Virus record (IMG/VR): IMGVR_UViG_3300042564_003366
Coordinates: 1-64,000 of that record
DNA: 64,000 nt
Direction: 5' to 3' (one strand)
Source of the DNA: a virus
Shown piece after piece: positions 24,737 to 64,000 of the stretch. The notes beneath the pieces were generated by a model, which saw only the letters and a list, made by a program, of their open reading frames with translations, was not told where the DNA came from and made no database searches. How positions within the stretch are numbered: the stretch's first letter is position 1; each line of letters opens with the position of its first letter. The translations under genes were made by a program, and so were the position numbers.

Positions 24737-26373
24737 GTAAGTATAAAATAGTTCCAAATTCATTTAAATTTAAGACCGCAGAGGAATTAGATAGTTTTAT
24801 TAATATAGATTTATCTACTGATAGAAAAGAACTTATTGAATTTGATAAGAACACAAATATTGATTTAGCTGATTTGGGGAATAAAGAAAAGAATGAATCT
24901 TTCAGATATAGACCAACAGTTAAAATAAATTTTATATATAACAATTCATACACTGGGACAACAATTTATACAGGTCATACATTATTTTATGAATATACGA
25001 GTAATTTAGATATAAATAATAACTACGGCTATTTAAATAGTTATGATTTTGACTTTTTTAGACCCCCTACTAATGTTGAGTATGATATATATGACACTTC
25101 GATAGCTTACAAGTATAATTGGTCATATTACTATACATATCCATTTGATGAGGTAGATAAAGAATTATCAATAGATTTATATGGTAAGAGTTTAACATGG
25201 AGTTCTTCGGATGGAATACCTTTCGTTTCAGAATATATAAAAGCCAATGGTAAAGATTTTATACGCTTAAAGTGTGGAGTTAAACATAACTTGTCGGCAT
25301 TTGAATATATAAGTTTAACAATAAATGGAGATGAGAATATTATAAAAATATCTTCATTAGGGGATGAGAAATACCAATCAGAATTTTACATATTGAATAT
25401 TGAGGTTGTTGATGTTTTAAATCCTATTATACCAGATGAGTATATTGGCACATTTAAAAGAGTTATTAATCCAAATAATTTAGAAGAAACCAAATCAAAA
25501 TATTATATTAGGAGGCATAAAGTAATAAAAAATGTTGACCAAATAAATGCTGTTAAATCTGGGTATGAGAAAAATATTTATGATTCACCTTATAGTTTGG
25601 TTTTCTATAAAAAAGAAACTAAACTAGGTAGGAGAAATTCAAATACTTCATATAATTTTACTATTGATGATGACATTGAGTTAGGTAATTTGGTTGATAA
25701 TAAAAACAGACCAATAACTGAATTATTTTTCACTATTGTTAACAAAGGGGTTAGTGGTTTTTTTAATAATCCAAATAATAATACGGGGTTAAAAGAAGGC
25801 TGGGAGTTTAATATAACAAGTACACCTAATAGATGGTGGGATGGCGCTGGGGCAAATACCAATATACCAACGTCAACATATACGAAAGATAATCTTGATT
25901 TTTATTATAATGATAATTATAAAAACGGTGATTTATTGAATGGGGATTTTTGTGAATGGAATAGTTTCGAACAAACGGAAAGGGTTATTTCGGAATATCA
26001 TCATAAAATAACACATAATCCCGATATATTTAAAATAGGCAATCAAAAAAATGGATATTACTATAAACCCCATAATAAAATTGTTGTAAAGGTTTTTTCT
26101 GACTATATAGAAAGGGGTTCAGTCGATGAGGTAGATAATATTCCAAGTTATGCTTTTTTCTCAAAACAAACAAATGAATTTGTATGGCGAGATTTATATG
26201 ATATTGGGTATTTTGATGATAATACGAAAGGTGTTAATTACCCATTTATAAATAATACGCATTATCCTTTTAATTATTTTATATTTAGATTAGTCCAAGA
26301 GGGGTATTCTTACACTAATAAAATTAGTGGATCAACTGAAAATGAAAAACCTATAATAGATGAGTGTGAATAA
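24733..26373 (+). CDS. Baseplate-region protein of unknown function
   Basis: This 546-residue protein overlaps the preceding stop by four bases (ATGA), a classic coupled arrangement. It is rich in Asn, Tyr, Asp and Phe, with alternating strand patterns and few helices, like the large beta-structured proteins of phage baseplates and fibre connectors. No catalytic motif, Cys cluster or membrane segment was seen. It shares its opening (SKYKIVPNSF) in style with the next protein's KYKLIKPN, which hints at a common N-terminal docking peptide. A structural baseplate role is inferred from the operon alone. Confidence 0.6.
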   Translation: MSKYKIVPNSFKFKTAEELDSFINIDLSTDRKELIEFDKNTNIDLADLGNKEKNESFRYRPTVKINFIYNNSYTGTTIYTGHTLFYEYTSNLDINNNYGYLNSYDFDFFRPPTNVEYDIYDTSIAYKYNWSYYYTYPFDEVDKELSIDLYGKSLTWSSSDGIPFVSEYIKANGKDFIRLKCGVKHNLSAFEYISLTINGDENIIKISSLGDEKYQSEFYILNIEVVDVLNPIIPDEYIGTFKRVINPNNLEETKSKYYIRRHKVIKNVDQINAVKSGYEKNIYDSPYSLVFYKKETKLGRRNSNTSYNFTIDDDIELGNLVDNKNRPITELFFTIVNKGVSGFFNNPNNNTGLKEGWEFNITSTPNRWWDGAGANTNIPTSTYTKDNLDFYYNDNYKNGDLLNGDFCEWNSFEQTERVISEYHHKITHNPDIFKIGNQKNGYYYKPHNKIVVKVFSDYIERGSVDEVDNIPSYAFFSKQTNEFVWRDLYDIGYFDDNTKGVNYPFINNTHYPFNYFIFRLVQEGYSYTNKISGSTENEKPIIDECE

Positions 26374-27151
26374 GTATAAATTAATTAAACCAAATGTTAA
26401 TGACTTGTTAATAAACCTACCAATAGAAATTAACTGGGATTATCTGGGGCATCAAGATAGCATAGATTCGTATGAAGAAACAATTATTGATACTATTACA
26501 AAAGATAAAATTGACTATGAATTAACTAGGTTTTCCCCCAAAAAATGTAGGGAAGGTTCTGATGTGCCTATTGAAAAATGCAACCAATTAAATTTTGAGT
26601 TTTATTTTTTCACAGGAACAACAATTGCTGATAATTCGCAGTGGATTCCTAGTTATTTAAATGGGGATTTTTTCGAGAAGGATATTATTTTTAATACTAA
26701 CAAGTTTAAAAACTCTTTTTTTAAATTAGATTTTTATGACTCACCAATAGCGAAGGAGCAAAAAATATATTTGTCAACCATTTTCCCATTTGAGAATGGT
26801 AATAAAAATAATAATGGCGTTAAGATACCAATATATACATTAGATTACACGTCTAATAGTGAGAATTATTTTATTTATTGGTTGAAAGATAAGAATTATT
26901 TAAATATTGATACTTTTTATGTTTCGGCAACTTATTTTAATAGTTCTGATGGGGATTTTACTAGGATGGCAAATATTTGCCAAGGGGGTTTGGCTGATAA
27001 ATATAATTTAAATTCTATTTTTGATTTTTATTATAAATTAGAATTAGATTATGATGTTAAGAAATATGAATATTTTGATATGAAGGTTGAAGATTTAGTT
27101 GTGGGGTTAGTTAATAACCCAATAAAATGGTATGAATACGTTTCAATATAA
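26360..27151 (+). CDS. Baseplate-region protein of unknown function
   Basis: This 263-residue protein has an ATG 14 bases inside the end of the preceding gene. It starts MSVNKYKLIKPNVNDLLINL, resembling the N terminus of its upstream neighbour. Its composition is Asn/Asp/Tyr/Phe-rich with predicted beta structure, a pair of Cys near residues 64 and 76, and no enzyme motif. Its stop overlaps the next ATG by one base. It is probably a connector or wedge accessory protein built together with its neighbours. Confidence 0.58.
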   Translation: MSVNKYKLIKPNVNDLLINLPIEINWDYLGHQDSIDSYEETIIDTITKDKIDYELTRFSPKKCREGSDVPIEKCNQLNFEFYFFTGTTIADNSQWIPSYLNGDFFEKDIIFNTNKFKNSFFKLDFYDSPIAKEQKIYLSTIFPFENGNKNNNGVKIPIYTLDYTSNSENYFIYWLKDKNYLNIDTFYVSATYFNSSDGDFTRMANICQGGLADKYNLNSIFDFYYKLELDYDVKKYEYFDMKVEDLVVGLVNNPIKWYEYVSI

Positions 27152-28197: not shown

Positions 28198-28207
28198 AGA
28201 AATAAAC

Positions 28208-28223: not shown

Positions 28224-28231
28224 ATAATATT

Positions 28232-29125
28232 ATGGCAATTGGAGTATATGGTACAGTTAGACCTAGTGATGTTAGTCCAGAAGATGTTGAAATTATTATG
28301 ATATATTCGCCATCAAGAGACCAAACGGAAACTATTGTTCAAAAAAAATTATCAGCAACGACATTACTAAAACCATATTTTGACGATGTTAATACTCAAG
28401 AGTTATTGGGGGGTTTATATAACTTAACATTACCAGCAGCCGAATTTACTTCAATTGGGTTTTATACATTATATTTAAGACCTGCGCAAATAAGAACTAA
28501 AATAAGCGATTGTGGAATATTAAGTGCGTTACCAAATGTTAAAGGTATCGTTATTAACTTAGATGAAGTACCAGATGATTTTAGAAATAAATTTGAGAAA
28601 GCCCAAGAACTTGTTGGTTATAGGGTGGAGTATTTAAATAATGGGCAAAAAGTCCCTAATTTTTTTAGAATAGTGACATCATCTTTTTTTTGTGAACCTA
28701 TTGTTACAAATGAAACAAATACATCGCAAAAAACAATAAGATATAGATATGTGGAGAATAATACAAATTTAGTATTTTTGACTTTGTCCCCAAGCAACTC
28801 ACCATCTAACAAGACAAATGCTGTACCATTTATTGGGCAGCCTGGACAAAGTATTATTATTTCTAATACATATTTTAATCCTACTACATTAGAGGTTGAG
28901 ATTGCTGAACATGACATATCAACATTAGCTGTTGGGTTATTTGGTAATCAGACTAAATCTGTTGAGGATGGAATATACACTATATATGATAGTGAAAATA
29001 ACATATATAAACAATATAATTTATTTGAAGTTAGAAATGAATTTAATGAATTGCTTTATGAGGTTAGAGAAGACCGAGGTGATGATATTGATATAAGTAA
29101 AAACTTTGATAATATAATAGAATAA
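28232..29125 (+). CDS. Baseplate-region structural protein of unknown function
   Basis: This 297-residue protein starts MAIGVYGTVRPSDVSPEDVE. It is predicted to be mixed alpha/beta with a central VGYRVEYLNNGQKVP and NFFRIV segment. No Cys cluster, membrane helix or catalytic motif is evident. It leads an operon with the gp7/tail-protein-I-like gene, whose ATG overlaps its stop by one base, so stoichiometric assembly with that wedge protein is likely. T4 gp8 occupies a comparable place next to gp7, but I see no sequence proof of homology. Confidence 0.6.
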   Translation: MAIGVYGTVRPSDVSPEDVEIIMIYSPSRDQTETIVQKKLSATTLLKPYFDDVNTQELLGGLYNLTLPAAEFTSIGFYTLYLRPAQIRTKISDCGILSALPNVKGIVINLDEVPDDFRNKFEKAQELVGYRVEYLNNGQKVPNFFRIVTSSFFCEPIVTNETNTSQKTIRYRYVENNTNLVFLTLSPSNSPSNKTNAVPFIGQPGQSIIISNTYFNPTTLEVEIAEHDISTLAVGLFGNQTKSVEDGIYTIYDSENNIYKQYNLFEVRNEFNELLYEVREDRGDDIDISKNFDNIIE

Positions 29126-44153: not shown

Positions 44154-45092
44154 ATGGCAAAATTACAGAGTAGTGAAATAGTAGGAGTAGCAAATAGACC
44201 TGCAACAATATGTTCAAATACGATGTGCATTTGGTTTGACACAACTAATTTAAAAACGGTTATTTCCTATTGTGGTTATGGAGCAGGTACTTGGTCAGCA
44301 GGAGGTGCATTAATAATTGCAAGAGCATATTTTGGTGGAACAGGAACTCAGAATGAATCTTTAGTAGCAGGAGGTTCAGGTGTAACTGGAGATGCATCAT
44401 GTACAGAAGAATATAATGGAACATCATGGGCAGCAGGAGGTGGTCTTATAACAACAAGATATCATCATGCTTTATTAGGTACACAAAACGAGGGTCTTGC
44501 GGTAGGAGGATATGCTTATCCAACACCTGCGGTAAGATGTACAGAAGAGTATAATGGCACATCATGGTCAGCAGGGGGTGCTTTGATATCAGGAAATTGG
44601 CTGATTATGGGAGCAGGCACACAGAACGTTGGGCTTGTTGCTGGAAACGCATGTACTGAAGAATATAACGGTGCTTCTTGGTCGGTAGGAGGTGCTATGA
44701 TTGTAAATAGGAATTATTTAACAGGAGGTGGTACACAAAACGAGGCTTTTGCATCAGGTGGGGGTGGGCCAGTAAATTGTACTGAAGAATACAATGGTAT
44801 TTCTTGGTCAGCAGGTGGGGCAATGATAACTGCAAGGTATAATTTAGAAGGTAGTGGTGCTCAGAATGCGGGTATTGTAGCGGGAGGTATATCAAGTACA
44901 TGGCTATCTTGTACAGAAGAGTACAACGGTAACTCTTGGTCAGCAGCTTCAGCAATTTCAACAGCTAAAAGAGGTTTAGCGGTTTCAGGTACACAACAAT
45001 CAGCTTTAGCAACAGGAGGTGTATCTAGTCAGTATTGGGGGGATACACAAGAATATAACAAATCATTCACAATAATAGATAGCATTCAATAG
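44154..45092 (+). CDS. Stand-alone kelch-like repeat protein, first of three paralogues
   Basis: This 312-residue protein has an N-terminal 45-residue strand/hook segment (MAKLQSSEIVGVANRPATIC, then CIWFDTTN) followed by six kelch-like repeats of about 44 residues. These have SAGGAxIxxR and TEEYNGTSW at regular intervals, with one shortened repeat near the middle. The repeats match those inside the 37116 fibre, which also carries a CYWYDTTN variant of the hook. It probably folds as a six-bladed propeller that binds a host surface sugar or protein. It is the first of three adjacent paralogues. Confidence 0.72.
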   Translation: MAKLQSSEIVGVANRPATICSNTMCIWFDTTNLKTVISYCGYGAGTWSAGGALIIARAYFGGTGTQNESLVAGGSGVTGDASCTEEYNGTSWAAGGGLITTRYHHALLGTQNEGLAVGGYAYPTPAVRCTEEYNGTSWSAGGALISGNWLIMGAGTQNVGLVAGNACTEEYNGASWSVGGAMIVNRNYLTGGGTQNEAFASGGGGPVNCTEEYNGISWSAGGAMITARYNLEGSGAQNAGIVAGGISSTWLSCTEEYNGNSWSAASAISTAKRGLAVSGTQQSALATGGVSSQYWGDTQEYNKSFTIIDSIQ

Positions 45093-47010
45093 ATATAATA
45101 CAATATGGCAAAATTACAAAGTACAGAGATAGTAGGTGTTGCAAATAGACCTGCAACAATATGTTCCAATAGTGTTTGTATGTGGTTTGATACTACTAAT
45201 ACTAAAATAGTTTTTTCATATTGTGGGTATAGTGGTGCAGGTGTCTGGTCAACGGGAGGTGCATTAATAATAGGAAGACAATCTTTAACAGGCGCAGGTA
45301 CTCAAAATGTGGGATTAGCTATGGGTGGTTTTTCAAATGCAGGGGTTGTTTCTTGTACAGAAGAATACAATGGCACATCTTGGTCAGCAGGAGGTGCTTT
45401 GATAACAGGAAGATATGATGGGGGAGGATTAGGAACTCAAAATGAGGGATTAGCCGTAGGAGGTACTACAAATACAGGTGCTGTTTCATGTACAGAAGAA
45501 TATAATGGCACATCTTGGTCAGCAGGTGGCGCACTTATAATAGGAAGATTTTATTTAGCAGGGGCAGGAACTCAAAATGAGGGATTAGTTATGGGAGGGT
45601 TTTCATCTTTGCGATGTACTGAAGAATATAATGGTACAAGTTGGGCAGTAGGCGGTATATTAATAACGGGAAGACATCATATAGCAGGTGCAGGAACTCA
45701 AAATGTGGGGTTAGCTATGGGGGGGGTAACATTATCATGTACTGAAGAATATAATGGCACATCTTGGTCAGTGGGTGGTGCAATGATAATAGCAAGAAGA
45801 GGTTTAGCAGGGGCAGGAACTCAAAATGAGGGATTAGCTATGGGAGGGCAAACCCCTTCATTTGTATCTTGTACAGAAGAATATAATGGTACAAGTTGGT
45901 CAGCAGCTGGTGTGTTAGCAACAGCAAGATATAACTTAGGAGGGGCAGGTACACAGTGTGCAGGACTTGCTATTGGAGGAAATGCTACGGGTAATAGAGT
46001 TGGAAACACAGAAGAATACACTAAACCATTAGCAATAATAGACTGTATTAAATAGAATATACAATATGGCAAAATTACAGAGTAGTGAAGTTGTTGGAGT
46101 AGCAAATAGACCTGCAACAATATGTGTAAATACGGTATGTTTATGGTATGATACTACTAATTTAAAACCAATGGCATCTTATTGTAGTAGGAGTGGAGCA
46201 GGTGTCTGGTCAGCAGGAGGTGCGTTGATAACAGGAAGAAGAGAATCTGGTGGTGGAGGTGCTCAAAACGAGGCGTTTATAGTTGGTGGTTATATTAATA
46301 CACATCTTACGTGTACAGAAGAATATAATGGAACATCATGGGCAGCAGGGGGTGGTCTTATAACATCAAGATACACTTTAGCTGGTGCAGGTTCACAGAA
46401 TGTTGGGTTAGCTATTGGTGGATATACAACTGGGTATGTTGGTTGCACAGAAGAATATAACGGCACATCGTGGACAGCAGGTGGAGCATTAATTACTGTA
46501 ATTGGTTATCAAGCAGCAGCAGGGACACAAAACGAAGCGGTTATAGGTGGTGGATATAACCAAACTCCAAGTGGTGGACCTAGAGTTTGTACCCAAGAGT
46601 ATAACGGTACAAGTTGGTCAACAAGTAATAATATGATAACCGCAAGATATGTTCTTTCTGGAATGGGTACACAGAACTCTGGACTTGCTGCTGCTGGTTA
46701 TTCAACCGCTTGTACTAGTTGTACTGAGGAGTATAATGGAACATCATGGTCAGTAGGGGGTGCATTAATAAATTCAAGGTGGGCTTCTGCGGGTGCTGGA
46801 ACACAGAACGAGGGGTTAATTATGGCTGGTTGGATAGGTTCGCCAATATCATGTACAGAAGAATATAATGGGAATAGTTGGACTACCGCAAACCCGACTA
46901 TTGTTGCAAGAGCGACTTATTGGGGGGCTGGTAGTCAAGGTAGTGCTTTAATAGGCGGTGGTTATACGCCAACGCATGTTTCTTGCACCGAAGAATACCT
47001 AAAATCATCA
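44290..47010 (+). repeat. Array of about 18 kelch-like repeat units across three genes
   Basis: Six units occur in each of three consecutive genes, and six more lie in the fibre gene at 38022-38820. Units such as GAATATAATGGCACATCTTGG recur almost unchanged, which gives many targets for homologous recombination. Confidence 0.82.
45105..46055 (+). CDS. Stand-alone kelch-like repeat protein, second paralogue
   Basis: This 316-residue protein has the same hook (MAKLQSTEIVGVANRPATIC, CMWFDTTN) and six regular repeats. It has the highest internal regularity of the three (GAGTQNxGLAMGG recurs), which suggests recent repeat conversion. It starts 12 bases after the previous stop and has no promoter of its own. 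The surface loops between the conserved blades differ from its neighbours, as expected if they set binding specificity. It is very likely a virion or fibre-attached propeller; no enzyme motif is seen. Confidence 0.72.
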   Translation: MAKLQSTEIVGVANRPATICSNSVCMWFDTTNTKIVFSYCGYSGAGVWSTGGALIIGRQSLTGAGTQNVGLAMGGFSNAGVVSCTEEYNGTSWSAGGALITGRYDGGGLGTQNEGLAVGGTTNTGAVSCTEEYNGTSWSAGGALIIGRFYLAGAGTQNEGLVMGGFSSLRCTEEYNGTSWAVGGILITGRHHIAGAGTQNVGLAMGGVTLSCTEEYNGTSWSVGGAMIIARRGLAGAGTQNEGLAMGGQTPSFVSCTEEYNGTSWSAAGVLATARYNLGGAGTQCAGLAIGGNATGNRVGNTEEYTKPLAIIDCIK

Positions 47011-47037
47011 TACACAATAGTAGATTGTATCTTATAA
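46066..47037 (+). CDS. Stand-alone kelch-like repeat protein, third paralogue
   Basis: This 323-residue protein opens with MAKLQSSEVVGVANRPATIC and CLWYDTTN, followed by six repeats. Repeats 3-4 are more diverged, with a longer loop (NQTPSGGPRVC). It starts 10 bases after the previous gene and ends 28 bases before the GT9-like glycosyltransferase. As with its neighbours, the conserved Trp, Gly-Gly and Thr-Glu-Glu-Tyr positions support a propeller, and the loops are variable. Confidence 0.72.
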   Translation: MAKLQSSEVVGVANRPATICVNTVCLWYDTTNLKPMASYCSRSGAGVWSAGGALITGRRESGGGGAQNEAFIVGGYINTHLTCTEEYNGTSWAAGGGLITSRYTLAGAGSQNVGLAIGGYTTGYVGCTEEYNGTSWTAGGALITVIGYQAAAGTQNEAVIGGGYNQTPSGGPRVCTQEYNGTSWSTSNNMITARYVLSGMGTQNSGLAAAGYSTACTSCTEEYNGTSWSVGGALINSRWASAGAGTQNEGLIMAGWIGSPISCTEEYNGNSWTTANPTIVARATYWGAGSQGSALIGGGYTPTHVSCTEEYLKSSYTIVDCIL

Positions 47038-50734: not shown

Positions 50735-52972
50735 ATGTTAATAGATAATTTGTATAATGGTGGTATTTTAAGTAATGAAATTAAATATGATTTAATGCAT
50801 TGTGGGTTTCTTGGTGGGGCTAAAATTAATATTGATTTTGGTGAAACAAAGGAAATTAAAAATATTGCTAAATTAGATAAAGTTTTAAGTTACAATATTG
50901 AATATAAGAAATATGAATTAAATTTAGTAGTTGATACGCACATAAAGAAAGTAGATAAAGTTTATGTAATAAATAAAAATATTATATGTGGGGAAACTCA
51001 AAAATTTTATGTAGATAATTTTGGTTGGAAGAAAGCGAAGGATTTAGTCATATCAGATAAGATTTTTAATGTAACAGAATATATTACTATTGAAGATTTT
51101 GAGATAAGGTATGAGGATTATATTTTATATGATTTAACAATTGAGAAGAATCATAACTTTTTTGTTTTGGGCAATTTGGTCCATAATCAAATTAATATAT
51201 CAGCAACCCCAACAAGTTCAGTTACCCCCACCCCAACGCCAACTATAACACCAACCATAACAATTACTCCAACAATATCAGTAACAACAACTATTACTCC
51301 AACTATAACACCAACCAGAACGGTAACTAGGACAATAACTCCAACACTAAGTATTACGGAGACTGTATTTCCGACAGCAACACTTACTAGAACTCCAACC
51401 ATATCAATAACCCCAACAATAACACCAACAATATCAATAACAACAACTATAACACCAACTAGAACGATAACGCCAACCATATCAATAACGCCAACCATAT
51501 CAATAACACCAACTCAAACCATAACGCCAACTCAAACCATAACACCAACGAGGAGTATTACTCCAACTATCACAAATACAATAAGTGTAACCACAACCCC
51601 AACAATAACTCCAACCATATCAATAACCCCAACAATAACACCAACAATACCAATAAAAACATTATTCCAAGATTGTAAAAATAATTCAATAAAGTATAGA
51701 TTTAGTTCTATTGGTTTGACATTTAATGTAGGGGAAATTTATGAGGTAAATGGTAATGGATTGCACTTTTTTGGTCAAGTTATTGCTTATGCCGAGCAAG
51801 GTACATTATACAGTTCAAATGGTATTGTATTCACAGGGCCACATACGGTATGTCCAAGTTTTTGTTTAACAAATGAATATACTTTATTAGATGGTTTTGC
51901 TGGTAATTATAAATCTGGTGGAACATATAATTCTAAAATATACTACACTGGTGACACTAGTGGCTTTGTTTATTATAATAATAGTGAATGGTGTTTAAGT
52001 GATAGTTTAGGGGGTGATTGTATAATAAATGGTAAATCACCTTGTTTTTCTATTACCCCAGACTTTAATTCATTAATCATATATTCAGGCTATTGTGTTA
52101 CACCAACGCCAACGCCATCAGTAATAAGTAGTATTAATTTTGATGCTTCTTTTACTTGTGAAATTGATATATCGCCAACCCCATCAATAACAAGAACGAT
52201 AACACCAACTGCATCATTAAGTGTAACGCCTAGCACTAGTATAGTTTATAACGAGAACATAGATTTATTATTATCTGGTTATACACCAAATTTAACCGTA
52301 ACTCCAACCGTGACACCTTCTATTACCCCAACTGAACCAATACAAATATTGGGGGCAGTTACATTTAATATGTTGGAAAATAGGTTTGCCAGAAATGGTG
52401 GTGTTAAGGTATTAAAAGATTGTAATTCTGGTGTATATTATTATGTTTCGCAAGATTTAATATATAATGGGCAACCAATTTTAACTGGTAAAATATTGAG
52501 GTTAAATGCCCAAGGGAATACAATTTGTGTTAATTACATTAGGGATAATGACAATTCTAGCACGAATTTATTTTTTGATGAAATAATTTCGGTTGGGGAT
52601 AGTTGCTCAACATGTGTAATATCACCAACACCAACAATAAGCATAACGTCATCAGTTAGTGTAACGCCATCACAATCAATTATGCCAACACCAAGTTTAT
52701 CAAGTAATTTGGTTTTTGTATTTGAAAGTTGTGGAGTTATATCACCAAGTATAAAGAAAAGCCAATTGGTTCAAACACAGCCATATGCGGAAATGTTAAA
52801 TATTGGTGATGTAGTTAAAGACTTTAATTTAAATTGCTGGGTATTTTTGGGGTATTTTAATAATAGTTATATACCAAGTAGTGATTTTATCTCATTAACA
52901 TATAATGGTAATTATTTTAATAATTATGAATCAAATATATATATAAATTGTCAAAATTGTACAAATGGATAA
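50735..52972 (+). CDS. Thr/Pro stalk fibre protein with an N-terminal Hint (intein-like) domain
   Basis: Residues 23-151 of this 745-residue protein form a Hint domain. Cys23 opens it (HCGFLGGAKINID), followed by KEIKNIAKLDKVLSYN, then GWKKAKDLVISDKIF and YDLTIEKNHNFFVLG, closing with V149-H150-N151. The block B His is apparently Gln (GETQKFYV), and the residue after Asn is Gln, not Cys/Ser/Thr. Full splicing is therefore doubtful, and cleavage or a dead fold is more likely. A Thr/Pro-Ile-Thr stalk follows (about 157-307), then Cys-containing beta domains separated by more Thr/Pro linkers. It is the first of three Thr/Pro stalk genes in a row. Confidence 0.78.
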   Translation: MLIDNLYNGGILSNEIKYDLMHCGFLGGAKINIDFGETKEIKNIAKLDKVLSYNIEYKKYELNLVVDTHIKKVDKVYVINKNIICGETQKFYVDNFGWKKAKDLVISDKIFNVTEYITIEDFEIRYEDYILYDLTIEKNHNFFVLGNLVHNQINISATPTSSVTPTPTPTITPTITITPTISVTTTITPTITPTRTVTRTITPTLSITETVFPTATLTRTPTISITPTITPTISITTTITPTRTITPTISITPTISITPTQTITPTQTITPTRSITPTITNTISVTTTPTITPTISITPTITPTIPIKTLFQDCKNNSIKYRFSSIGLTFNVGEIYEVNGNGLHFFGQVIAYAEQGTLYSSNGIVFTGPHTVCPSFCLTNEYTLLDGFAGNYKSGGTYNSKIYYTGDTSGFVYYNNSEWCLSDSLGGDCIINGKSPCFSITPDFNSLIIYSGYCVTPTPTPSVISSINFDASFTCEIDISPTPSITRTITPTASLSVTPSTSIVYNENIDLLLSGYTPNLTVTPTVTPSITPTEPIQILGAVTFNMLENRFARNGGVKVLKDCNSGVYYYVSQDLIYNGQPILTGKILRLNAQGNTICVNYIRDNDNSSTNLFFDEIISVGDSCSTCVISPTPTISITSSVSVTPSQSIMPTPSLSSNLVFVFESCGVISPSIKKSQLVQTQPYAEMLNIGDVVKDFNLNCWVFLGYFNNSYIPSSDFISLTYNGNYFNNYESNIYINCQNCTNG
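51205..51655 (+). repeat. Thr-Pro-Thr-Ile repeat stalk in the Hint-fibre gene
   Basis: About 150 residues of TPTITP/TPTISI/TPTRT units are encoded by ACNCCAAC(A/C)ATA(A/T)C-type repeats with many synonymous differences. Shorter relatives lie at about 52100-52130, 52173-52240, 52290-52335 and 52620-52705. Confidence 0.85.
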
Positions 52973-53298: not shown

Positions 53299-56200
53299 AT
53301 GGCATATAAAATAATATCATTAGGTACACCAGGTCAAATTGATGTGCCATCAACATGTTTAGGAACAACGGGTTTAACAAAATATATTGATGAAACTTTT
53401 GCTATAACAAATGGTTTAATAATCTATAATGATACAAATTTAACAACACGAACATATACATCTAATCCGGGGGGTTATTCATTAATAATAGATGGGTTGT
53501 TTAAGTATGCTGTAACATTTGACGAGAGTGGAACGGTTAGCGTAGTAACTAGTTGTGGGATACCAGCATCATTAACCCCAACACCAACAATATCAATAAC
53601 ACCAACAATAAGCATTACTCCTACAATAACACCAACAATATCAATAACACCAACAATAAGCATTACTCCTACAATAACACCAACTAATACAATAACGCCA
53701 ACTATTACTATTACATCATCGGTAACACCAACAGCAGGTTTATCTCCAACACCAACAACAAGTTTAACGCCAACCATAACACCAACCATAACTCCTACAA
53801 TAACAATTAGCCCAACGATATCATTAACACCCAAATCAACACCAATTGGCCCTGAATGTGATATTCCTATAACAATATTACCATTAGAAGTTATTTGTGA
53901 TCCAACAGATGCTACTTGGCCTAATTGTGATGATGGTCAAATTTCCTTAAAAATAAAAGGTGGTACGCCACAATATAAAATATATATAAATGGGGTTCTA
54001 ACAACTGAAGACCCAATAATTAATTTAAAACCAGGTGTTTATGAAATACGAGTGGTTGATTTTTATGGTGATTACATTGTAGTAATTTTTTGTGAAGTTA
54101 AATGCCCATCACCAATATCGCCAACCCCAACAAAGAGCGTTACACCTTCAAGAGTTACACCAACCCCAACAAAGAGTGTTACCCCTTCAAGAGTGACACC
54201 AACGCCATCTAAAACAAGGGTTACACCAACGCCCACAATGACACCTAGCCCAAGTGGTCAACCTTGTGTTGTTATGCTTATGGGGGTTGATGATAAATTG
54301 CTATATAGTTTTAGTTTAATTGGTGAAAATTGGTATGAAACACCAGAGCCAAAGATTTTTGATGTTGCGGCATATTCAGCAGCACACAATGGGGTATCAA
54401 CATGGGTTGTTGGTGGTGAGGCAACTGAAGCAAGGTTGGCTTATTCGTATGATGGGATAAATTGGACATCTATTGCAAACGGTTCATCTATATTTGAATC
54501 GAGATGTAGTGTAGTTATACATGATGGTAGTAAATTTATAGCAGGTGGTGGCGGTGACTACGGAGGTCAAATTGCAACATCGCCAGATGGAATTAGTTGG
54601 ACAGTTGTTGCAGAGGATCTTTTTGATGGTGGTGATTGTTTAACATTGTCATACAATGGTAGCATATATGTTGCTGGGGGTTCAGGTTTTATTACTAGTT
54701 TGGCTTATTCAAATGATGGAATTACTTGGTTGCCTATTGCTGGTAGTGGAGCATTAATGTTGCTTGTTAAATCTATTGCAACAAATTGTTCTGGGTTTGT
54801 TGCTGTTGGTGGTAACACTGATAATAGTCCTACGGGTAATACCATATTAACATCTGAAGATGGGATTAAATGGGTTGGTGAAGGTGTTGACGATATTGGT
54901 ACGGGTAATTCAGTTGTTTGGAATGGTTCAAATTGGGTTGCTGGTGGTGAAAGTTTTGGTGGTGTTTTGTCATCGTATATCGTTTCATCAGATAGTCATA
55001 CTTGGACACCAATTGAATTTGATACTATTGTAACTGCATTACATTGGAATAATAGACGATTGTTTTATGGTGGTGAACCAGATGGTAATTTACCAATTAA
55101 GAATTTATATAAGACAGCACCCCAACCAGGGAGTTACACAGATAAGAGTGATTTAATTACACCATATGCACAGAATATGGTTAATTTCATTTCATCTAGG
55201 TATTCTGGATGTTTGGGTTATAATGAAGATTGTATTCCGCCCGAACCATCACTTAGTGTAACACCATCTATAACACCAACAATAACACCAACCAAATCAA
55301 TAACAAGAACACCATCAATAACACCAAGTATAACGCCAACAATATCAATAACACCAAGTATTACACCAACAATATCAATAACACCAACAATTACGCCTAG
55401 TATATCAGTAACTAGAACCGTTACTCCAACAATATCTATAACAAAAACACCTACCCCAACGACAACAACGCAACCAGATGAGTGTGTTGTATTGGTTGTA
55501 GTTCCAAATGTACCAAATAACCCATTAGTATCTGATGGTGTTAAGGTTTATAGATTTAAAGTTGATACTGGTGCAACTACATTATATGCTGATTTAAAAG
55601 ATGTAAATAATGATCCAATATTTGCGAATGATATTGCGATGACCGAAACCAAATTCTGGTTATACAATGCATCAAACCCCAATATAATTCACGAGTATAA
55701 TATTACTAGATTACTTAACCCTTGGACTTATTCGTATAGTAGAAAAATAACAGCAGATGTTAATTTAGGTAAAGGATTAGCAGCAAAAAATAATACCACA
55801 TTAATTGGTGGGGGTTACACACTAGATTCAAATAATGTTTCCACGATATATGAATTTGATATATCTGGTTCTCAAGCAACTAAAAAGCCTCTTTTTGATT
55901 TACCAGGTGGGGGATCAATAGTTGAAGGTGATTTATATTACAATAAACAAAACGGTGTAATATATGCTGTTTATTACAGACTAATAAATGACCCAAATAA
56001 TCCAGGACAACAATTATTAGAATCAAATATTGGTATGTTTGACCCTAATAAGAATGGAGCAAATAAATTAGTTAGAAATTATACATTACCATTTAGCGGT
56101 GTTCTTACAATTTTCGTTGATAGAGGTAGACTCTTTATTGTTGAAAATCAAGAGGACACTAAAAATGTGGTTTATCAAATTGATTGGGTCACATTAGCAC

Positions 56201-59200
56201 CAACACTTTTTAATGTTAATGTTGGATTAACTGATTTGTTTAGGGGTGGTGCAGAGTCGGATGATTGTAGAAAAATATTATGTAATGAATTAGTCAAAAG
56301 TCAAGATTATGGTAATTATGGTTTCCCAATTGAATTTGAAATTCAATTAGATAGATTAGTGGGGGGGACCGTTAATTTTAAATATACTTCAGCAGATAAA
56401 CCAACAAGATTTATTCTTGTTTTTGATGGTCAACCAATTGTTGATACTGGGTATGTTGGTGCTCCAATATATGGGCATAAAGTTCCGCCACAAACAGCAG
56501 AAAGAAATTTATTTACAACATCTCTAAATGGTAAAATTGACCCAATAACGGGTAATTTTTATCCAAATTCTTCGACAACAGACCCAGCACCAGATAATTT
56601 CCCAAACATTAATCAAACGGCATTAAAATCGTTTATTAAGAATTCTTCAACATCAACTCTAGTAGTTAGAGTATATGCGCCATTAGACCAAACAATATGG
56701 TCATTTGAGGTTAGTTGTCCAATACCACCAACACCAACTCCAACGAGGACAAAAATTGTACCATCTTTAACCCCAACACCGACAAGACCAGACCCAGATG
56801 GGTGCATACCATGTAACAACAATGTTCAAATCAAGGGTACTCAAACATATGGTAAGAAATATTGTATTATAGTTCCAAATAATGGTTTGGTTGAATTTTA
56901 TTTTGAAACATATGTAAATCCTGATAGGTTTATTATTGAATATGAAGGTGAAATTATTGGAGACACAGGTTTTGTTGGATTAGAAGCTGATAGTGCAACT
57001 CCTGGGTTTGGTAGAGGTGGGGGTAATAGACTATTTTTCCAACGAGGTGTAGTTAATGATTTAGAACCTATTACTAATATAACATATCCAAATATTTTAG
57101 CAAGAGATACTTATAAAACCCCACCAAATGATGATTCTGTTGGGTATCCAGTTGTTCATAGTGTTAGTTATACACCTGAACAAATACAAGGTAATCCAAT
57201 GCCATTTGTAAAGGTAAGTACAGGTTATAATAATTGTGATTTTTGTCTATATGGTCCTTGTAGAGGTCAAGGGTTAACTGATAGCAAATGTGGAACCATT
57301 TCGTTTGTAAAAAATGGAGTGTCAGATAAAATATATGTTTATGCTTATGGACCAGAAAGTAATACTGAGTGGTTTTTTAGAATGAAATGCCCACAACCGT
57401 ATAAGTGTGATCAAGTTGTGTATCCTGATACAACATTTAATTGTTATTACAGCACTTACGCTATAAGTGGTGATACAGTTCCAGGTCTTGTTAGATTTGA
57501 GAGTATTTCTAAAAATACACCAGTTAGGTTTATCCTTAGAGACCTAAATAAGACACAAGTTGTTGATACTGGTTATATTGGTGATTTGAAATATAATATA
57601 GGTGGAGGTGAAAGAAATATTTTTAATACATCTTTGGTTGGTAAACTAGATCCCTACTTAAATCAAAATTATCCTATAGCATATGATGCACAAAATCCAA
57701 GACATATTAAAATAGCAGCAGATGGTTATCCTATTGTTTATGCGACAAATGAATTTGAAGAGTATTTTTATAAAAAAGATAATCAACCAATTACAGCATA
57801 TGTTGATGTTTTTGACCCATTATGCCAATATGATTGGGAGTTCATTGTATTGTGTCCTTGTGAATTGGATTGTTTTGATGATCCTACACCACCAGACCCA
57901 TCAGTATCGGTAACACCATTAAATAGTATCACACCAACACCTACTATAACTAAAACTATAACAAGTACACCATCAGTAACGCCAACGGTAGGGTTGTCTC
58001 CAACACCAACAAGAACGCAAGCACAACAACTTGATTGTTTTGATTGTTCTAATGTTCAATATGCAGGAGGGCAAGTATATCCAGCAAGGTATTGTTTTAA
58101 TATAGGTACAGATATAAATCAAGTTGTTCCTCTTAATTTTAATACAATAAATTACCCCGATAGGTATATTGTAAAATTTGATAATAATTTTGTTATTGAC
58201 ACAGGGTATGTTGGTTCAACTGGGTATGGTTATGGTGAACCATTAAGAGGTGATTTTATATCAACATTATTGGGTAAAATTGACCCAATTAGTGGTTTGG
58301 GTTATCCAGATGTTAATATACCAAATACTGAAAGTGATGGATTTCCAATCATTTTTGGTAGTAAGGTTACTTCACGTAATTTTGTAAAAAATACAAATAC
58401 TAATATTGTTTATGTTGAGGTTTATGCACCAATGTTAACAACACAATGGTCTTTCTCACTTGGGTGTGGAGTTAATAATCCAGATGAATTAATACAAAAT
58501 TCAGTATTAAGTCCAACATTAACACCTATGCCTAGTATAACCCCTACCTTAACGCAAACGAATAACCCATACGCAAATATATGTAGAGTGTTTTCTGCTG
58601 GTAGAGACTTAACGGGTAACAATAGATGTTTAGTTGCTTGTGAAACAAGTAGTCAAATATTTGGTAAATATTTAACATTTAATGGTTCTATTGGTTCTAT
58701 TTATTATGCTAATCAAACGGCATGTGAAACTAATAATCAAAGATTGTGGGGTTTTGAAAGGACATTTGTCGTAAATGGCATATGTTATACAATAAATGAT
58801 TCTGGGGCTATAGTTAGTTCAACTTTATGTCAAGTTGTAACCCCAACGCCAACACCATCAATAACACAAACAAATTCATCACAAGAATTAATTAATGCGT
58901 CTATTGTATTAGGTATTACGTTTACTGGTGTATATAGAATTTATTTTAACCAAAATTTAAGTGGGGTGACACAAACAGATAAATTAGTCAATTTACCTGA
59001 CAATAATTATACTGATATAGCAATATCAGGTACAAAACTTTGGTTAAATAGTATTTTGAATAATAGTATTGATGAATATAATATAACTTTATCGCCTTGG
59101 ACTTATTCATATAGTAGAACAATAAATATTTCTAATTATTTAGCAAGTGGTAATGGTCTAGCATATAAATCAAGTAATGTTCTTATTTCAGGAAATCAAG

Positions 59201-61227
59201 GAATATATGAGATTGATATAACGACTAATAATGGCTTGGAAACTTTATTATTTATGCTTCCAAATAATGGAGGGAATATTGTTTCAGAGGTCAATGGGGA
59301 TATTTTATATAATCCTACAAATGGTAATTATATTATTATATATAATACAATATATAGGGATAGTGGTGTTATTGAACATTATATTGGTGAGTTCTCATCA
59401 AATGGTTCATTGTTGAATAGGGTTACATTAAGTAGGGATGATTTCTATAGCATTTTTGCACAAAATCAGAAAACGTATGTTACTACAGTGACAAATGAGA
59501 TATTTGAATTAAACTCAAATTTTGATTTAGTTTATTTTGGTTTAATGGATGATATTAGCCTTAGAGGTGCGGCCAATTTAGAAAGTGCTATAATGCCAAT
59601 TCCACAACCTTCTATAACCCCATCAAAAACCCCATTCCCAACTAGAACAGCCACAAGGAGTGTAACCCCAACTAGAACGGTAACAAGAACTATATCAAGA
59701 ACTCCAACACCAACTAAATCATTAACACCAAGCATTTCAATCACACCAACCATAACACCAAGTATATCTATAACTCCGACTATAACACCAACTATATCAA
59801 ATACAAGGCCATTTGTTCCATCATTTTGTTCAAATTGTCAACCATCTGGACAATGGAGGCAGTATAATGCAGATTGTTGTTACCTTGTTGAAACATTACA
59901 AGTCAATACTCCAACATCAAATATTTATACAACTTCACCAAGCAAGTCTAATAATTACTCTATGTATGGTGCAAGATTTTATAATGATGGTTTCACAAAG
60001 GATGGTAGGGGCGAGATTTCTTATTTCTCAAATACATTAGACATTTGGGCAAACACATATTCACAAGATGGGTTTGGTCCTATGAATAGGAGCGGTGTTT
60101 GGGCAAGTAATATTGAAAATAAATGGGTAGGATTTGCAATTCCATTGGGTGGTAATGTTTCTGGAAAAAGATATTGGATTGGTATTGGAGCAGAAAATAA
60201 CTTCAAGATTATTTTAAATGGGGTTGAATTAATCAATACCACAACACCTCCAGCAACATATCCATTAACTGGGGATTCATATAAGTATTGGCATGTATAT
60301 CCAATTGATGTGTTTGCTGGAACAAGCATACTTGAAGTATATGGCTTAAATGATACTTATGGTTCATTTGGCTGCGAGGTATATGATAAGGATGTTTATG
60401 ATTTGATAAATGCAACATCAGTTGATAACTTGAATATTGTGTTTTCAACAATAACTAAACCTAATTTTGAGTTGGTTCAAAATTTATCAAACATATATTT
60501 AACAAATGGTTTTTCTTGTGCTACCAATTTCTCATATTCATCAATAAATAATAATTGCCAAAAGATATTAACTTGTTGTGATACGCCATCAGTTTCTTTG
60601 ACACCTAGTGTATCAATAACGCCAACAAAAAGTGTTACAATTTCACTCACACCATCAAGACCAATACCAACATATTACCAATCAACACTAAGTATTGTAA
60701 TAGATAGTGGTATCTGTGATAGTTGGGGAGTTATACCATTTGTTGATAAAGATTCTGTTTGTTCTAACTATAATGAATGTTTTACTGGTGTTACATCATC
60801 AAGCAGTGTTTCTTTATATATGACAAACAAAAGGACTCCACAAACACCAATAGTTGGGGATTTATTGTATGATTCAAATGGTGTAAAACCCCAAGCAGGT
60901 TGGTATATAACAAAAGATGGAATTACAAACAACACAAAGGTTATTTTTGTAAATTCAATTGGTATGTTATCTTCTTCTGAATTTTGTTTTGAAACCAAAA
61001 TAGCAAAAGGGCAAACCAATAATTCTTGTTCATCTTTGATTTATGATACAATAACAATTTATAAAACTTACAATTATCTTACAAATGTTTCAAAATTATA
61101 TAGAAGCCAAACAAATGCCCAAATGGGAGTTTCTGATTGGAATGGTTGGTACTATTTTGTGGCTGTTGATAGTAAAGTATTAACCATTGATTTTGATGGT
61201 GTTATTATTAATATTGAGCAATGTTAA
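53299..61227 (+). CDS. Giant multidomain Thr/Pro-linked fibre protein
   Basis: This 2642-residue protein is built like beads on a string, with globular domains separated by at least eight Thr/Pro linkers. The order includes an N-terminal beta domain (1-88) and an SprB-like repeat (about 186-271). A propeller follows (about 320-648) with five SxDGxxW-type blades (YSYDGINW, SPDGISW, SNDGITW, SEDGIKW). A second propeller-like domain (about 725-990) has a relative near 1870-2100. Four related sandwich domains carry RFIxxxxxxxxxDTGYVG (at about 1034, 1208, 1408 and 1620). A galactose-binding-like domain lies near 2190-2400 (RYWIGIGAENNFKIILNG). It is one of the longest phage fibre-like proteins I would expect. 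Confidence 0.75.
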   Translation: MAYKIISLGTPGQIDVPSTCLGTTGLTKYIDETFAITNGLIIYNDTNLTTRTYTSNPGGYSLIIDGLFKYAVTFDESGTVSVVTSCGIPASLTPTPTISITPTISITPTITPTISITPTISITPTITPTNTITPTITITSSVTPTAGLSPTPTTSLTPTITPTITPTITISPTISLTPKSTPIGPECDIPITILPLEVICDPTDATWPNCDDGQISLKIKGGTPQYKIYINGVLTTEDPIINLKPGVYEIRVVDFYGDYIVVIFCEVKCPSPISPTPTKSVTPSRVTPTPTKSVTPSRVTPTPSKTRVTPTPTMTPSPSGQPCVVMLMGVDDKLLYSFSLIGENWYETPEPKIFDVAAYSAAHNGVSTWVVGGEATEARLAYSYDGINWTSIANGSSIFESRCSVVIHDGSKFIAGGGGDYGGQIATSPDGISWTVVAEDLFDGGDCLTLSYNGSIYVAGGSGFITSLAYSNDGITWLPIAGSGALMLLVKSIATNCSGFVAVGGNTDNSPTGNTILTSEDGIKWVGEGVDDIGTGNSVVWNGSNWVAGGESFGGVLSSYIVSSDSHTWTPIEFDTIVTALHWNNRRLFYGGEPDGNLPIKNLYKTAPQPGSYTDKSDLITPYAQNMVNFISSRYSGCLGYNEDCIPPEPSLSVTPSITPTITPTKSITRTPSITPSITPTISITPSITPTISITPTITPSISVTRTVTPTISITKTPTPTTTTQPDECVVLVVVPNVPNNPLVSDGVKVYRFKVDTGATTLYADLKDVNNDPIFANDIAMTETKFWLYNASNPNIIHEYNITRLLNPWTYSYSRKITADVNLGKGLAAKNNTTLIGGGYTLDSNNVSTIYEFDISGSQATKKPLFDLPGGGSIVEGDLYYNKQNGVIYAVYYRLINDPNNPGQQLLESNIGMFDPNKNGANKLVRNYTLPFSGVLTIFVDRGRLFIVENQEDTKNVVYQIDWVTLAPTLFNVNVGLTDLFRGGAESDDCRKILCNELVKSQDYGNYGFPIEFEIQLDRLVGGTVNFKYTSADKPTRFILVFDGQPIVDTGYVGAPIYGHKVPPQTAERNLFTTSLNGKIDPITGNFYPNSSTTDPAPDNFPNINQTALKSFIKNSSTSTLVVRVYAPLDQTIWSFEVSCPIPPTPTPTRTKIVPSLTPTPTRPDPDGCIPCNNNVQIKGTQTYGKKYCIIVPNNGLVEFYFETYVNPDRFIIEYEGEIIGDTGFVGLEADSATPGFGRGGGNRLFFQRGVVNDLEPITNITYPNILARDTYKTPPNDDSVGYPVVHSVSYTPEQIQGNPMPFVKVSTGYNNCDFCLYGPCRGQGLTDSKCGTISFVKNGVSDKIYVYAYGPESNTEWFFRMKCPQPYKCDQVVYPDTTFNCYYSTYAISGDTVPGLVRFESISKNTPVRFILRDLNKTQVVDTGYIGDLKYNIGGGERNIFNTSLVGKLDPYLNQNYPIAYDAQNPRHIKIAADGYPIVYATNEFEEYFYKKDNQPITAYVDVFDPLCQYDWEFIVLCPCELDCFDDPTPPDPSVSVTPLNSITPTPTITKTITSTPSVTPTVGLSPTPTRTQAQQLDCFDCSNVQYAGGQVYPARYCFNIGTDINQVVPLNFNTINYPDRYIVKFDNNFVIDTGYVGSTGYGYGEPLRGDFISTLLGKIDPISGLGYPDVNIPNTESDGFPIIFGSKVTSRNFVKNTNTNIVYVEVYAPMLTTQWSFSLGCGVNNPDELIQNSVLSPTLTPMPSITPTLTQTNNPYANICRVFSAGRDLTGNNRCLVACETSSQIFGKYLTFNGSIGSIYYANQTACETNNQRLWGFERTFVVNGICYTINDSGAIVSSTLCQVVTPTPTPSITQTNSSQELINASIVLGITFTGVYRIYFNQNLSGVTQTDKLVNLPDNNYTDIAISGTKLWLNSILNNSIDEYNITLSPWTYSYSRTINISNYLASGNGLAYKSSNVLISGNQGIYEIDITTNNGLETLLFMLPNNGGNIVSEVNGDILYNPTNGNYIIIYNTIYRDSGVIEHYIGEFSSNGSLLNRVTLSRDDFYSIFAQNQKTYVTTVTNEIFELNSNFDLVYFGLMDDISLRGAANLESAIMPIPQPSITPSKTPFPTRTATRSVTPTRTVTRTISRTPTPTKSLTPSISITPTITPSISITPTITPTISNTRPFVPSFCSNCQPSGQWRQYNADCCYLVETLQVNTPTSNIYTTSPSKSNNYSMYGARFYNDGFTKDGRGEISYFSNTLDIWANTYSQDGFGPMNRSGVWASNIENKWVGFAIPLGGNVSGKRYWIGIGAENNFKIILNGVELINTTTPPATYPLTGDSYKYWHVYPIDVFAGTSILEVYGLNDTYGSFGCEVYDKDVYDLINATSVDNLNIVFSTITKPNFELVQNLSNIYLTNGFSCATNFSYSSINNNCQKILTCCDTPSVSLTPSVSITPTKSVTISLTPSRPIPTYYQSTLSIVIDSGICDSWGVIPFVDKDSVCSNYNECFTGVTSSSSVSLYMTNKRTPQTPIVGDLLYDSNGVKPQAGWYITKDGITNNTKVIFVNSIGMLSSSEFCFETKIAKGQTNNSCSSLIYDTITIYKTYNYLTNVSKLYRSQTNAQMGVSDWNGWYYFVAVDSKVLTIDFDGVIINIEQC
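53569..53850 (+). repeat. Thr-Pro repeat linker 1 of the giant fibre
   Basis: TPTISITPTI units are encoded by near-identical tandem DNA repeats (an exact 48-base-scale duplication of the block around 53590-53680). Confidence 0.82.
55247..55470 (+). repeat. Thr-Pro repeat linker 3 of the giant fibre
   Basis: This linker of about 75 residues holds TPSITPT, TPTISI and TRTPSI units between the first and second propeller-like domains. Confidence 0.82.
59601..59812 (+). repeat. Thr-Pro repeat linker before the C-terminal domains of the giant fibre
   Basis: This linker of about 70 residues starts with an Arg-rich half (TRTATRSVTPTRTVTRT), followed by the usual TPTITPSISITPTI half. Confidence 0.8.
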
Positions 61228-61305: not shown

Positions 61306-64000
61306 ATGAGTTTAGATAAAGGATTTAGTCCAGAATTGTTAAAAAAATTAACAGAAAAACATTTTAATGAATCATCTGAAAATGTTATAGGTGTATTATA
61401 TGGTTACAAACAAAAATCAAATGTTCTTACTGATAATTTGAGTTTGGTTTTCTTTGTCAAAGAAAAAAAACCAATATCTGAAATACCTGAATCTGAATTA
61501 ATTCCAAAAGAAATTAATTTTAATGGACAGACATTCATAACTGATGTTCAAGAATCCAACTATGAATTATTATCTTGTTTATCTGATAACTTTAATTGTG
61601 ATAATTTAAATGTACCTAATAGGGGTCAAATATTACCTTTAGAGGGGGGTATATCAATATCAAACTCTATACAAGCACTTGCCCCAGGCACTGGCACAAT
61701 GGGTTTATTAGCCATTGATTTGGATAGTTATTCATTGGTTGGGATATCAAATAACCACGTTTTAGTTGGTGATTCAGCATTCTATACAAAATATAGAAAT
61801 ACAAATGCTATCGCTACAAATATTTTCGGAAACGAGATTGTTCAACCTGGTTATGCGGATAGAGCACCAAGAGATGTTATAGGTGTAGTTAAGAAATACG
61901 ATCCAATTAGACCATATCCAGAATTAAATTATTCAGACTCAGCAGCGTTAGCAATAGATGACCCCTCAATAATTGATTTTGTTCGTTCATTTAAGCAATA
62001 TGATTTAAATTCATTATCTGGACCATTTGAATTTGCAACAACAGAAGAGATTGATAGATTATTATCAATTGATTATAATACGGCAAAGATATATAGTACT
62101 GGTAGAAGTACGGGTTCAAAGGGGGAAAATGGCGAGATGCAACTTAGAATTGCTGGTTTATTTGGTAATGTTTTAGTTAATTTTCCAAATCAACTAACAA
62201 ATGTCCCAATAGTATTGGCTGACAACATATTTTTCTATGGTATGTCAGATAATGGGACAATATGTGATTATAGTGTTTGTAAAGGTGATTCTGGATCAGC
62301 ATTAGTTGCAGAAATAAATGGTAAATACAAAATAATTGGTATAGTTTGGGGAGGGGATTCAAGCCCAGGTGGTTATGGTATTGCAAGTAGAATAGATAGA
62401 ATTGCATCAGCATTAAATATTGGTCCTTGGTTGGGTCAAACAGATGTTAATTTTTCAGATACTAGTAAAATTGAATTAAAAATTGTTGAAGGTATTAATG
62501 ATATTAAAACAATAAATTCAGAAGGTAAAACTTTTTGGCAAATTGGTGCTTATACCCCAATAACTTTTGATTTATTTGATGAATATGCGGGAGACAGACC
62601 AAATGATATCCCAGATTATGTTGATTTTGTATCAATTAGACAAGATGTTGTTGATTTTTTATTTTTACAGAAGTTTGAAAAATTAAATCTTAATGTCCCA
62701 TTTGAGGGGTCAACACTTACTTTGAATTTAAATGCACAAAGTTTTTATAGCAATGAACCATTTAAGACATCAAGTGGGTTAATATTAGAACAAACATCTA
62801 TTTCATATATTGGGGAGATTGATGGTTATTTAAATTCTAATGCTTTAGTATTAATAACAAATAGTAATGTTAAAATACTAGCAACATATGAGAATCATTC
62901 AGTAGTGTTTGAAAATTATGAAAGTAATTTATATAGTACTTGGGATTCTTTTGATGTGCAATCAACTAAGGGTTTTTTATTAGGTGGTTGTGTAATGCTA
63001 ACCCCCGAAGAGGGGGAATTTCAAGTATTAGAAAAAATAACAAATGAATTTAGTACAAATCAATTAACCGAAAAAGTAGTAACAGTACAATTACATACCC
63101 ACTATAATTTATATCAACAAGCTGGGGGTAATGTAGGTGTAGTACAAAGTTATTTAGATTGGTTAACTTTAAATGTTGGAAGAATAATACAAAAAGAATT
63201 TTCTGGTATTTTCAGATTAGAATTCTCATTTATTATTTGGAATACTCCATCACCATTTAGACCATACCTATATAGTGGTTCATTTGCATTTCAAGATTAT
63301 ATAGGTGCGCAACCAAACACACATTGTTTGTATCATTTATTAGTTGAAAATACGACAGATGGTGGGTCTGGCGGTGTTGCTTACGTTTCAGCACTTTGTA
63401 AACCTAACAAGGAAAGAACAGGTGCCTCAGGAGTAATTGATTTAAGTAGTAGGGTGGATTATCCCAATTATGACTGGGGGGTTAATGTTGTTGCGCATGA
63501 ATTAGGACATAATTTAGGAACAATACATACACATGATTGCGTATGGAATGGTAATAATACAGCCATAGATGGTTGTTATCCACCAAATTGTTCTGCATTA
63601 GAGCAGTATCCAGCAAATAAGGGTACTATTATGTCATATTGCCACACAATAGGTGGTGTGGGTGTTGATTTAAATTTAGGATATGGCCCGCAACCAAGAC
63701 AAGCAATAATTAATCATATTACAGCTGCAAATAATGCTGGCTGTTGCTTTAGTGAGCCACAAGTTACAAGAACGCCAACACCAACAATATCAGTTACAAA
63801 GTCAATTACACCAACTATATCAAAAACACCAAGACCAACACAATCAAGTGTTGTATGTCCTCCGCCTTTCTGTCCTATGATTGGACCATATAGTTACCCA
63901 ACATATCCTGATTATAAAATGTATGATATTACATCTAATTTAGGTTATGTTTTTTTAGATTCTGTTATACCAGGTAATGTTGCTAGATTTATAGTGAACT
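61306..64000 (+). CDS. Dual-protease fibre protein (trypsin-like plus metzincin), 3' partial
   Basis: The frame runs from the ATG at 61306 off the window end (898 residues visible). Residues about 100-380 are a trypsin-like serine protease domain with H151 (SNNHVLVG), D211 (YSDSAAL) and S329 (KGDSGSALV). Residues about 590-810 are a metzincin: HELGHNLGTIH (Zn ligands H731, H735, H741, base E732) with the Met-turn IMSYCH (M776) and paired Cys, like Bacteroidetes reprolysin-type enzymes. A Thr/Pro stalk (about 821-848) then leads into a further domain cut by the window end. There is no signal peptide, which fits a virion protein. Both active sites look complete. Confidence 0.85.
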   Translation, partial: MSLDKGFSPELLKKLTEKHFNESSENVIGVLYGYKQKSNVLTDNLSLVFFVKEKKPISEIPESELIPKEINFNGQTFITDVQESNYELLSCLSDNFNCDNLNVPNRGQILPLEGGISISNSIQALAPGTGTMGLLAIDLDSYSLVGISNNHVLVGDSAFYTKYRNTNAIATNIFGNEIVQPGYADRAPRDVIGVVKKYDPIRPYPELNYSDSAALAIDDPSIIDFVRSFKQYDLNSLSGPFEFATTEEIDRLLSIDYNTAKIYSTGRSTGSKGENGEMQLRIAGLFGNVLVNFPNQLTNVPIVLADNIFFYGMSDNGTICDYSVCKGDSGSALVAEINGKYKIIGIVWGGDSSPGGYGIASRIDRIASALNIGPWLGQTDVNFSDTSKIELKIVEGINDIKTINSEGKTFWQIGAYTPITFDLFDEYAGDRPNDIPDYVDFVSIRQDVVDFLFLQKFEKLNLNVPFEGSTLTLNLNAQSFYSNEPFKTSSGLILEQTSISYIGEIDGYLNSNALVLITNSNVKILATYENHSVVFENYESNLYSTWDSFDVQSTKGFLLGGCVMLTPEEGEFQVLEKITNEFSTNQLTEKVVTVQLHTHYNLYQQAGGNVGVVQSYLDWLTLNVGRIIQKEFSGIFRLEFSFIIWNTPSPFRPYLYSGSFAFQDYIGAQPNTHCLYHLLVENTTDGGSGGVAYVSALCKPNKERTGASGVIDLSSRVDYPNYDWGVNVVAHELGHNLGTIHTHDCVWNGNNTAIDGCYPPNCSALEQYPANKGTIMSYCHTIGGVGVDLNLGYGPQPRQAIINHITAANNAGCCFSEPQVTRTPTPTISVTKSITPTISKTPRPTQSSVVCPPPFCPMIGPYSYPTYPDYKMYDITSNLGYVFLDSVIPGNVARFIVN
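63766..63840 (+). repeat. Thr-Pro repeat stalk after the metzincin domain
   Basis: This short stretch encodes TPTPTISVTKSITPTISKTP. It shows that the protease protein belongs to the same family of linked fibre proteins. Confidence 0.8.

Follow-up and report, generated by a model that had tools for sequence, protein, structure and literature searches.

The open reading frame (ORF) that closes the window (the whole stretch of viral DNA analysed here, 64,000 of the 72,399 bases of its source IMG/VR record) encodes what is, with good support from sequence, a fibre-type protein, with two protease domains at its N-terminal end: a trypsin-like serine protease resembling rice NAL1 and, behind it, a metzincin that has kept its prodomain. 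On balance, it is probably a virion fibre in which the NAL1-like module would serve in attachment or processing and the latent metzincin would act against a protein of the host surface or matrix. The domains, catalytic residues, prodomain with its cysteine, homologies and gene context that enter this reading are taken from sequence or from models, and the features concerned are the following:

26360..27151, plus strand: tail-region gene, intact in the window; in a related contig (L068), a tag/serine-protease/linker cassette divides its homologue in two
53299..61227, plus strand: Thr/Pro fibre protein of 2642 aa, upstream of the protease ORF, with domains common to it and no clear C-terminal tag
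61306..64000, plus strand: fibre-type ORF, in-window part, with no stop before the window end (full ORF 61306-69606 in record G000, 2766 aa)
61306..62550, plus strand: NAL1-like trypsin-like serine protease module, aa 1-415, including the closing FWQIG (YWQxG) motif, from phrog_20754, alignment and homologue fold
61756..61758, plus strand: catalytic His151, from alignment with phage homologues
61936..61938, plus strand: catalytic Asp211, from the same alignment
62290..62292, plus strand: catalytic Ser329 (GDSGS), from the same alignment
62593..63000, plus strand: metzincin prodomain, aa ~430-565, from homology to zymogens and a model matching the ADAM17 and fragilysin zymogens
62989-62991, plus strand: invariant Cys562, candidate cysteine switch, from a 24-sequence alignment
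63067..63750, plus strand: metzincin (reprolysin/adamalysin-like) catalytic domain, aa ~588-815, from Pfam matches, alignment and model
63496..63528, plus strand: zinc motif HELGHNLGTIH, aa 731-741, from sequence
63631..63633, plus strand: Met-turn Met776 (GTIMSYC, from aa 773), from sequence and alignment
63769..63852, plus strand: first Thr/Pro linker, C-terminal of the metzincin, matching other linkers in the record and followed later in the ORF by longer ones

The frame had been described in the earlier note as open from 61306 to the window end, which is confirmed, and it runs on to 69606 in the record. Past the metzincin, the protein consists of Thr/Pro linkers (six long ones in the ORF) and repeated domains of ~130 aa, with a vWA domain at aa 2274-2449 (E 4.5e-15); both linkers and repeated domains recur in the upstream fibre 53299-61227, in agreement with the claim that the stalk is shared with the fibres. 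As judged by reading the N-terminal sequence, no signal peptide is present at the ORF start (MSLDKGFSPELLKKLTEK), nor is there a C-terminal sorting (T9SS-like) domain, the ORF terminating in GDCEPGGGGGS, and a Pfam scan of the entire 2766-aa protein gave no Peptidase_S74 C-terminal self-cleaving domain. Other products of the window include a UvsX-like recombinase and subunits of the baseplate wedge, the wedge genes lying upstream of the protease ORF, and the closest named relatives of the wedge protein belong to Flavobacterium phage immuto (29% identity) and Microcystis phage Mel-JY01. The virus is an uncultured T4-like phage, likely of a Bacteroidota host. Since the source record is a fragment (72 kb), partner genes may be absent from it.

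The proposal of a protease-bearing fibre has thus held up at the level of gene and protein sequence, given the missing signal peptide, the tail and fibre neighbourhood, the shared linkers and domains and the same design in other phages. That the protein is instead a non-virion effector, freed at lysis to degrade extracellular protein in the manner of the secreted metzincins of some large phages, seems very improbable: a 270-kb phage contig does encode a free metzincin that has both a signal peptide and a T9SS-like C-terminus (L033:7878-9680), its serine protease gene (L066) being unlinked, but the window protein lacks both of these secretion features and its linkers and domains are those common to fibres.

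The serine protease module matches phrog_20754 'protease' with E 7e-21 over aa 24-371, and the Pfam family Trypsin (PF00089) only just over the cut-off. The triad H151/D211/S329 named in the earlier note lies at those positions, in agreement with the family matches and with an alignment of 33 phage homologues, in which the His and Ser (contexts NNHV and GDSGS) are invariant and the Asp (D-A) nearly so; on these matches and this conservation, the domain is not a chance one. The two protease domains were modelled separately, and the fold of the first was assigned through the model of a homologue (L069), to which the window serine protease is 41% identical in the alignment; the best match of that model is rice NAL1 (Foldseek E 4e-14, Z ~21). 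Moreover, a family profile that includes the window copy finds NAL1 sequences with E ~1e-5, and profile and model both give a NAL1-type N-terminal domain followed by a trypsin fold. Rice NAL1 (NARROW LEAF 1) is thus like the phage family in its N-terminal domain, trypsin fold and H/D/S triad, whereas the phage members sit in fibre loci, most of them behind a C-terminally tagged fibre, and in the window a metzincin and a stalk have been joined to the module.

Alignment-based scans yielded 191 related IMG/VR loci, and the 80 best were retained. A typical member stands alone, has 400-440 aa and terminates shortly after the YWQxG motif, while linkers and further C-terminal domains are present in a minority. 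The family of the window module also includes PHROG 20754 'protease' and, in the uncultured jumbo phage LR756508, a stand-alone serine protease; unlike the window copy, the latter is a protein of 335 aa and unfused, and its upstream gene is untagged. Among the phage records searched, no cultured Flavobacterium phage with a family member was found. A pattern scan of GTDB contigs from 84,980 prokaryote genomes gave no relatives, and a profile search gave distant matches in three of the 295 genomes of the class containing a Flavobacterium; the idea that phages took this serine protease from bacteria was therefore rejected. As the bacterial matches are only distant, the family is a phage-associated subfamily of a fold that is not exclusive to phages. 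One more distant match of the profile search, an NAL1-like protease encoded by a Chryseobacterium (L244), may be a bacterial cousin of the phage family.

The metzincin domain exceeds the Pfam cut-off for four families of the M12B group, Reprolysin_5, _2, _4 and _3 (PF13688, PF13574, PF13583, PF13582), the first with E 1.2e-12 and a score of 49 bits, where the cut-off is 27, and falls below it for PF01421; taken with the conserved residues, this match too is not due to chance. The complete HExxHxxGxxH motif with Met-turn noticed at first reading is indeed present (HELGHNLGTIH at 731-741, Met776), and across all 24 aligned homologues both are unchanged, as is the cysteine of the prodomain (562 here). 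A motif scan followed by an alignment scan of viral contigs gave a viral metzincin set of 39 loci, and the protein was compared by blastp with seven ORFs from the motif scan. In this comparison, aa 434-814 of the protease ORF align with a signal-peptide protein (E 5e-36), and the extent of this alignment identifies aa 430-565 as a prodomain. The predicted structure of prodomain and catalytic domain has a mean pLDDT of 77.5 (~90 for the prodomain), and its top PDB matches are the zymogen of ADAM17 and Bacteroides fragilis profragilysin, with only 9-15% identity; ADAM17 is a membrane sheddase and fragilysin a secreted toxin, in which they differ from the window protein.

Furthermore, GTDB contigs contain at least 270 loci related to the metzincin, and nearly all of the 80 listed are from Bacteroidota. 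A hydrophobic leader opens nearly all of the 79 related ORFs that were read, and a T9SS-like domain ends many of them; a signal peptide is present in most bacterial and many viral homologues. The secreted M12B-like metalloproteases of Bacteroidota (Flavobacterium, Chryseobacterium, Saprospiraceae and others) share with the window protein the invariant prodomain cysteine, the HExxHxxGxxH motif and the Met-turn, whereas the phage protein has neither their signal peptide nor the T9SS-like end that they often carry, and its metzincin is instead preceded by a serine protease and followed by a fibre stalk. Thus, by homology and model, the phage protein includes a whole metzincin zymogen minus its signal peptide. 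Since the prodomain is retained, the enzyme should be made in a latent form and would need activation, and Cys562 is, from alignment and model, a candidate cysteine switch.

Metzincins are also found on fibres of other phages. Three tandem ORFs with an N-terminal prodomain and metzincin occur in a 215-kb contig (L043:6146-16885) and two in a 108-kb contig (L049:6990-16317); most of these run on into Thr/Pro linkers like those of the window, and several have C-terminal domains in common with the neighbouring fibre. The prodomain cysteine is conserved in them, and their zinc motifs are mostly canonical, although in one of the five the Gly is replaced by Asp. Next to a related fibre in L227 lies a partial case, which is probably a third such contig. 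The metzincin fibre is therefore a recurrent design and no one-off. Both proteases on one chain, however, were found in no other record: a peptide-pattern search of IMG/VR gave no relatives of the entire N-terminal part, and the INPHARED phages gave only a stand-alone serine protease and one weak match (E 5). Of 44 records with the serine protease, one also has a metzincin by profile, and of 22 metzincin records, one also has a serine protease, so the two enzymes are usually unlinked.

The genes around the serine protease in other phages bear on its function. Among 52 non-redundant members, there are 43 (45 by a looser pattern) in which the gene directly upstream closes with a short, conserved C-terminal tag, such as NTIYVHIPN, NTLFMFIPNL, NTIYTHFESL, RTIYKYLDIL or NTVFVKYDVY, usually right behind a Thr/Pro or Thr-rich linker and no more than 18 bases from the protease start codon. 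Elsewhere, the stricter pattern occurs in only 8 of 755 other ORFs, and some of these eight are tags already counted or belong to a second copy of the protease. When proteases were clustered at 70% identity, 29 of 33 clusters contained a tagged case. The core of the tag is encoded by 26 different codon sets, which rules it out as a DNA signal and implies conservation at the protein level. With tag and protease modelled as one artificial chain, the stop being read through, the tag forms a strand (pLDDT ~73), while the joining stretch scores ~40-57. For several NAL1 chains whose N-terminus is resolved, the alignment starts at model residues 3-7, in or beside the tag, against NAL1 residues 47-51; this is a hint, based on the first and last aligned residues of an artificial chain, that the tag may replace the N-terminal strand of NAL1 itself.

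In the window, no clear tag is found at the end of the upstream fibre 53299-61227, which lies 78 bases from the protease ORF, an arrangement shared by a few other members. The sequence NNIYIKGEIKY, at the end of 35360-36463, was considered as a tag and set aside as too weak a match to count. As its upstream gene is untagged, the serine protease may act differently in this phage.

A contig closely related to the window phage (L068, ~56-94% identity across window 20075-34877) provides a further case. At L068:2134-4568, a tag/serine-protease/linker cassette splits the homologue of 26360-27151 into two ORFs: the first 63 residues run on to the tag GTVFIYIPNI and a stop, the protease starts two bases later and is followed by a Thr/Pro linker, and the rest of the tail protein then resumes with 65% identity. 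The gene is uninterrupted in the window and in two other relatives (L228, L230). That both halves remain conserved in spite of the insertion suggests either that the two chains are kept joined by the tag and protease, or that the split does no harm.

These observations have led us to consider, tentatively, a two-part joint of tag and NAL1-like protease that couples virion chains and travels as a mobile cassette, the window protein being a derived form with a latent metzincin. The tag would add a strand to the protease module and so couple two separately made chains, which the protease might also release by cutting; the cassette of tag, stop, start, protease and linker would move among phages and, as in L068, could interrupt a tail gene without destroying it. 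For the window copy, behind an untagged gene, this idea may not hold.

More generally, the adjacency of tag and protease points, at the level of gene order, to a role in assembly, docking or processing more than in host digestion. The suggestion of the earlier note, in which the two enzymes would act alike on surface proteins of the host (perhaps gliding adhesins or an S-layer), is accordingly supported only for one of them. The metzincin fits such a role because its relatives are secreted extracellular proteases of Bacteroidota, although it comes with a prodomain; for a serine protease whose family normally lies beside a tagged fibre, assembly, docking or processing fits at least as well. As an account of both enzymes, degradation of a host receptor or barrier is unlikely: the catalytic residues are intact in both and other such phages carry metzincins on fibres, but the serine protease is mostly stand-alone, in many phages comes straight after a tagged fibre gene and is able to insert in a tail gene, all of which argues for a virion partner over a host substrate.

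NAL1-like proteases recognise specific partner proteins. This property, together with the adjoining tag and protease, would also suit a serine protease that is purely a maturation enzyme, trimming its own chain and neighbouring fibres, with the metzincin as a passenger or binding domain. We find this quite improbable, since a passenger would hardly have kept all the metzincin catalytic residues and the prodomain cysteine, and tandem metzincin fibres that look active occur in other contigs.

For the reading that we prefer, a fibre with an NAL1-like module and a latent metzincin, we infer the virion location, activity, order of activation and substrate as follows. The NAL1-like module would attach or process fibre chains, as in the fibre loci of related phages. 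The metzincin zymogen would have been acquired from host-type secreted Bacteroidota proteases and grafted on a Thr/Pro stalk, which replaced the usual signal peptide and sorting domain. The prodomain would hold the zinc site closed while the virion assembles in the cell, and its removal, whether the adjoining serine protease or a protease on the host surface performs it, would free the metzincin to cleave a surface or matrix protein while the distal domains, vWA included, bind. That the serine protease cuts off the prodomain is a guess from their order in the chain, because the bacterial homologues would be expected to activate without a linked serine protease.

Each of the domain families is already known. 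In the open-access literature we found no description of the serine protease/metzincin fusion, of recurrent metzincin fibres or of the tag/protease pairing. The polysaccharide depolymerases of phage tailspikes likewise place a catalytic domain on a receptor-binding protein (reviewed in PMC5380687), whereas the enzymes of the window are proteases, one of them a zymogen. If our reading is correct, Bacteroidota phages use protease-armed fibres, with one protease as a zymogen, and protein (an adhesin, glycoprotein coat or matrix), not polysaccharide, would be indicated as the barrier or receptor, so that some phages may attack or trim proteins instead of sugars at docking. Moreover, the analysis exposes a widespread family of NAL1-like phage proteases, paired with a short C-terminal fibre tag, and makes its role directly testable.

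Finally, several other genes of the region were noted. A fibre-type ORF (50735-52972) has an N-terminal HINT/intein-like domain (PF07591, E 3.5e-5, under the cut-off) followed by Thr/Pro linkers, and a tail-region protein (32742-34880) contains SprB repeats (E 1e-28), which are those of adhesins for gliding motility. Three paralogues in tandem (44154-47037) are kelch-like repeat proteins (GGALI...TEEYNGTSW), and 37116-40511 encodes a collagen-like protein with GTSGSSGTSG repeats, whose C-terminus resembles, by eye, the Peptidase_S74 chaperone domain. The gene next downstream of the protease ORF (L006:11643-12560, record 69642-70559) carries a Fib_succ_major domain (E 6e-37).
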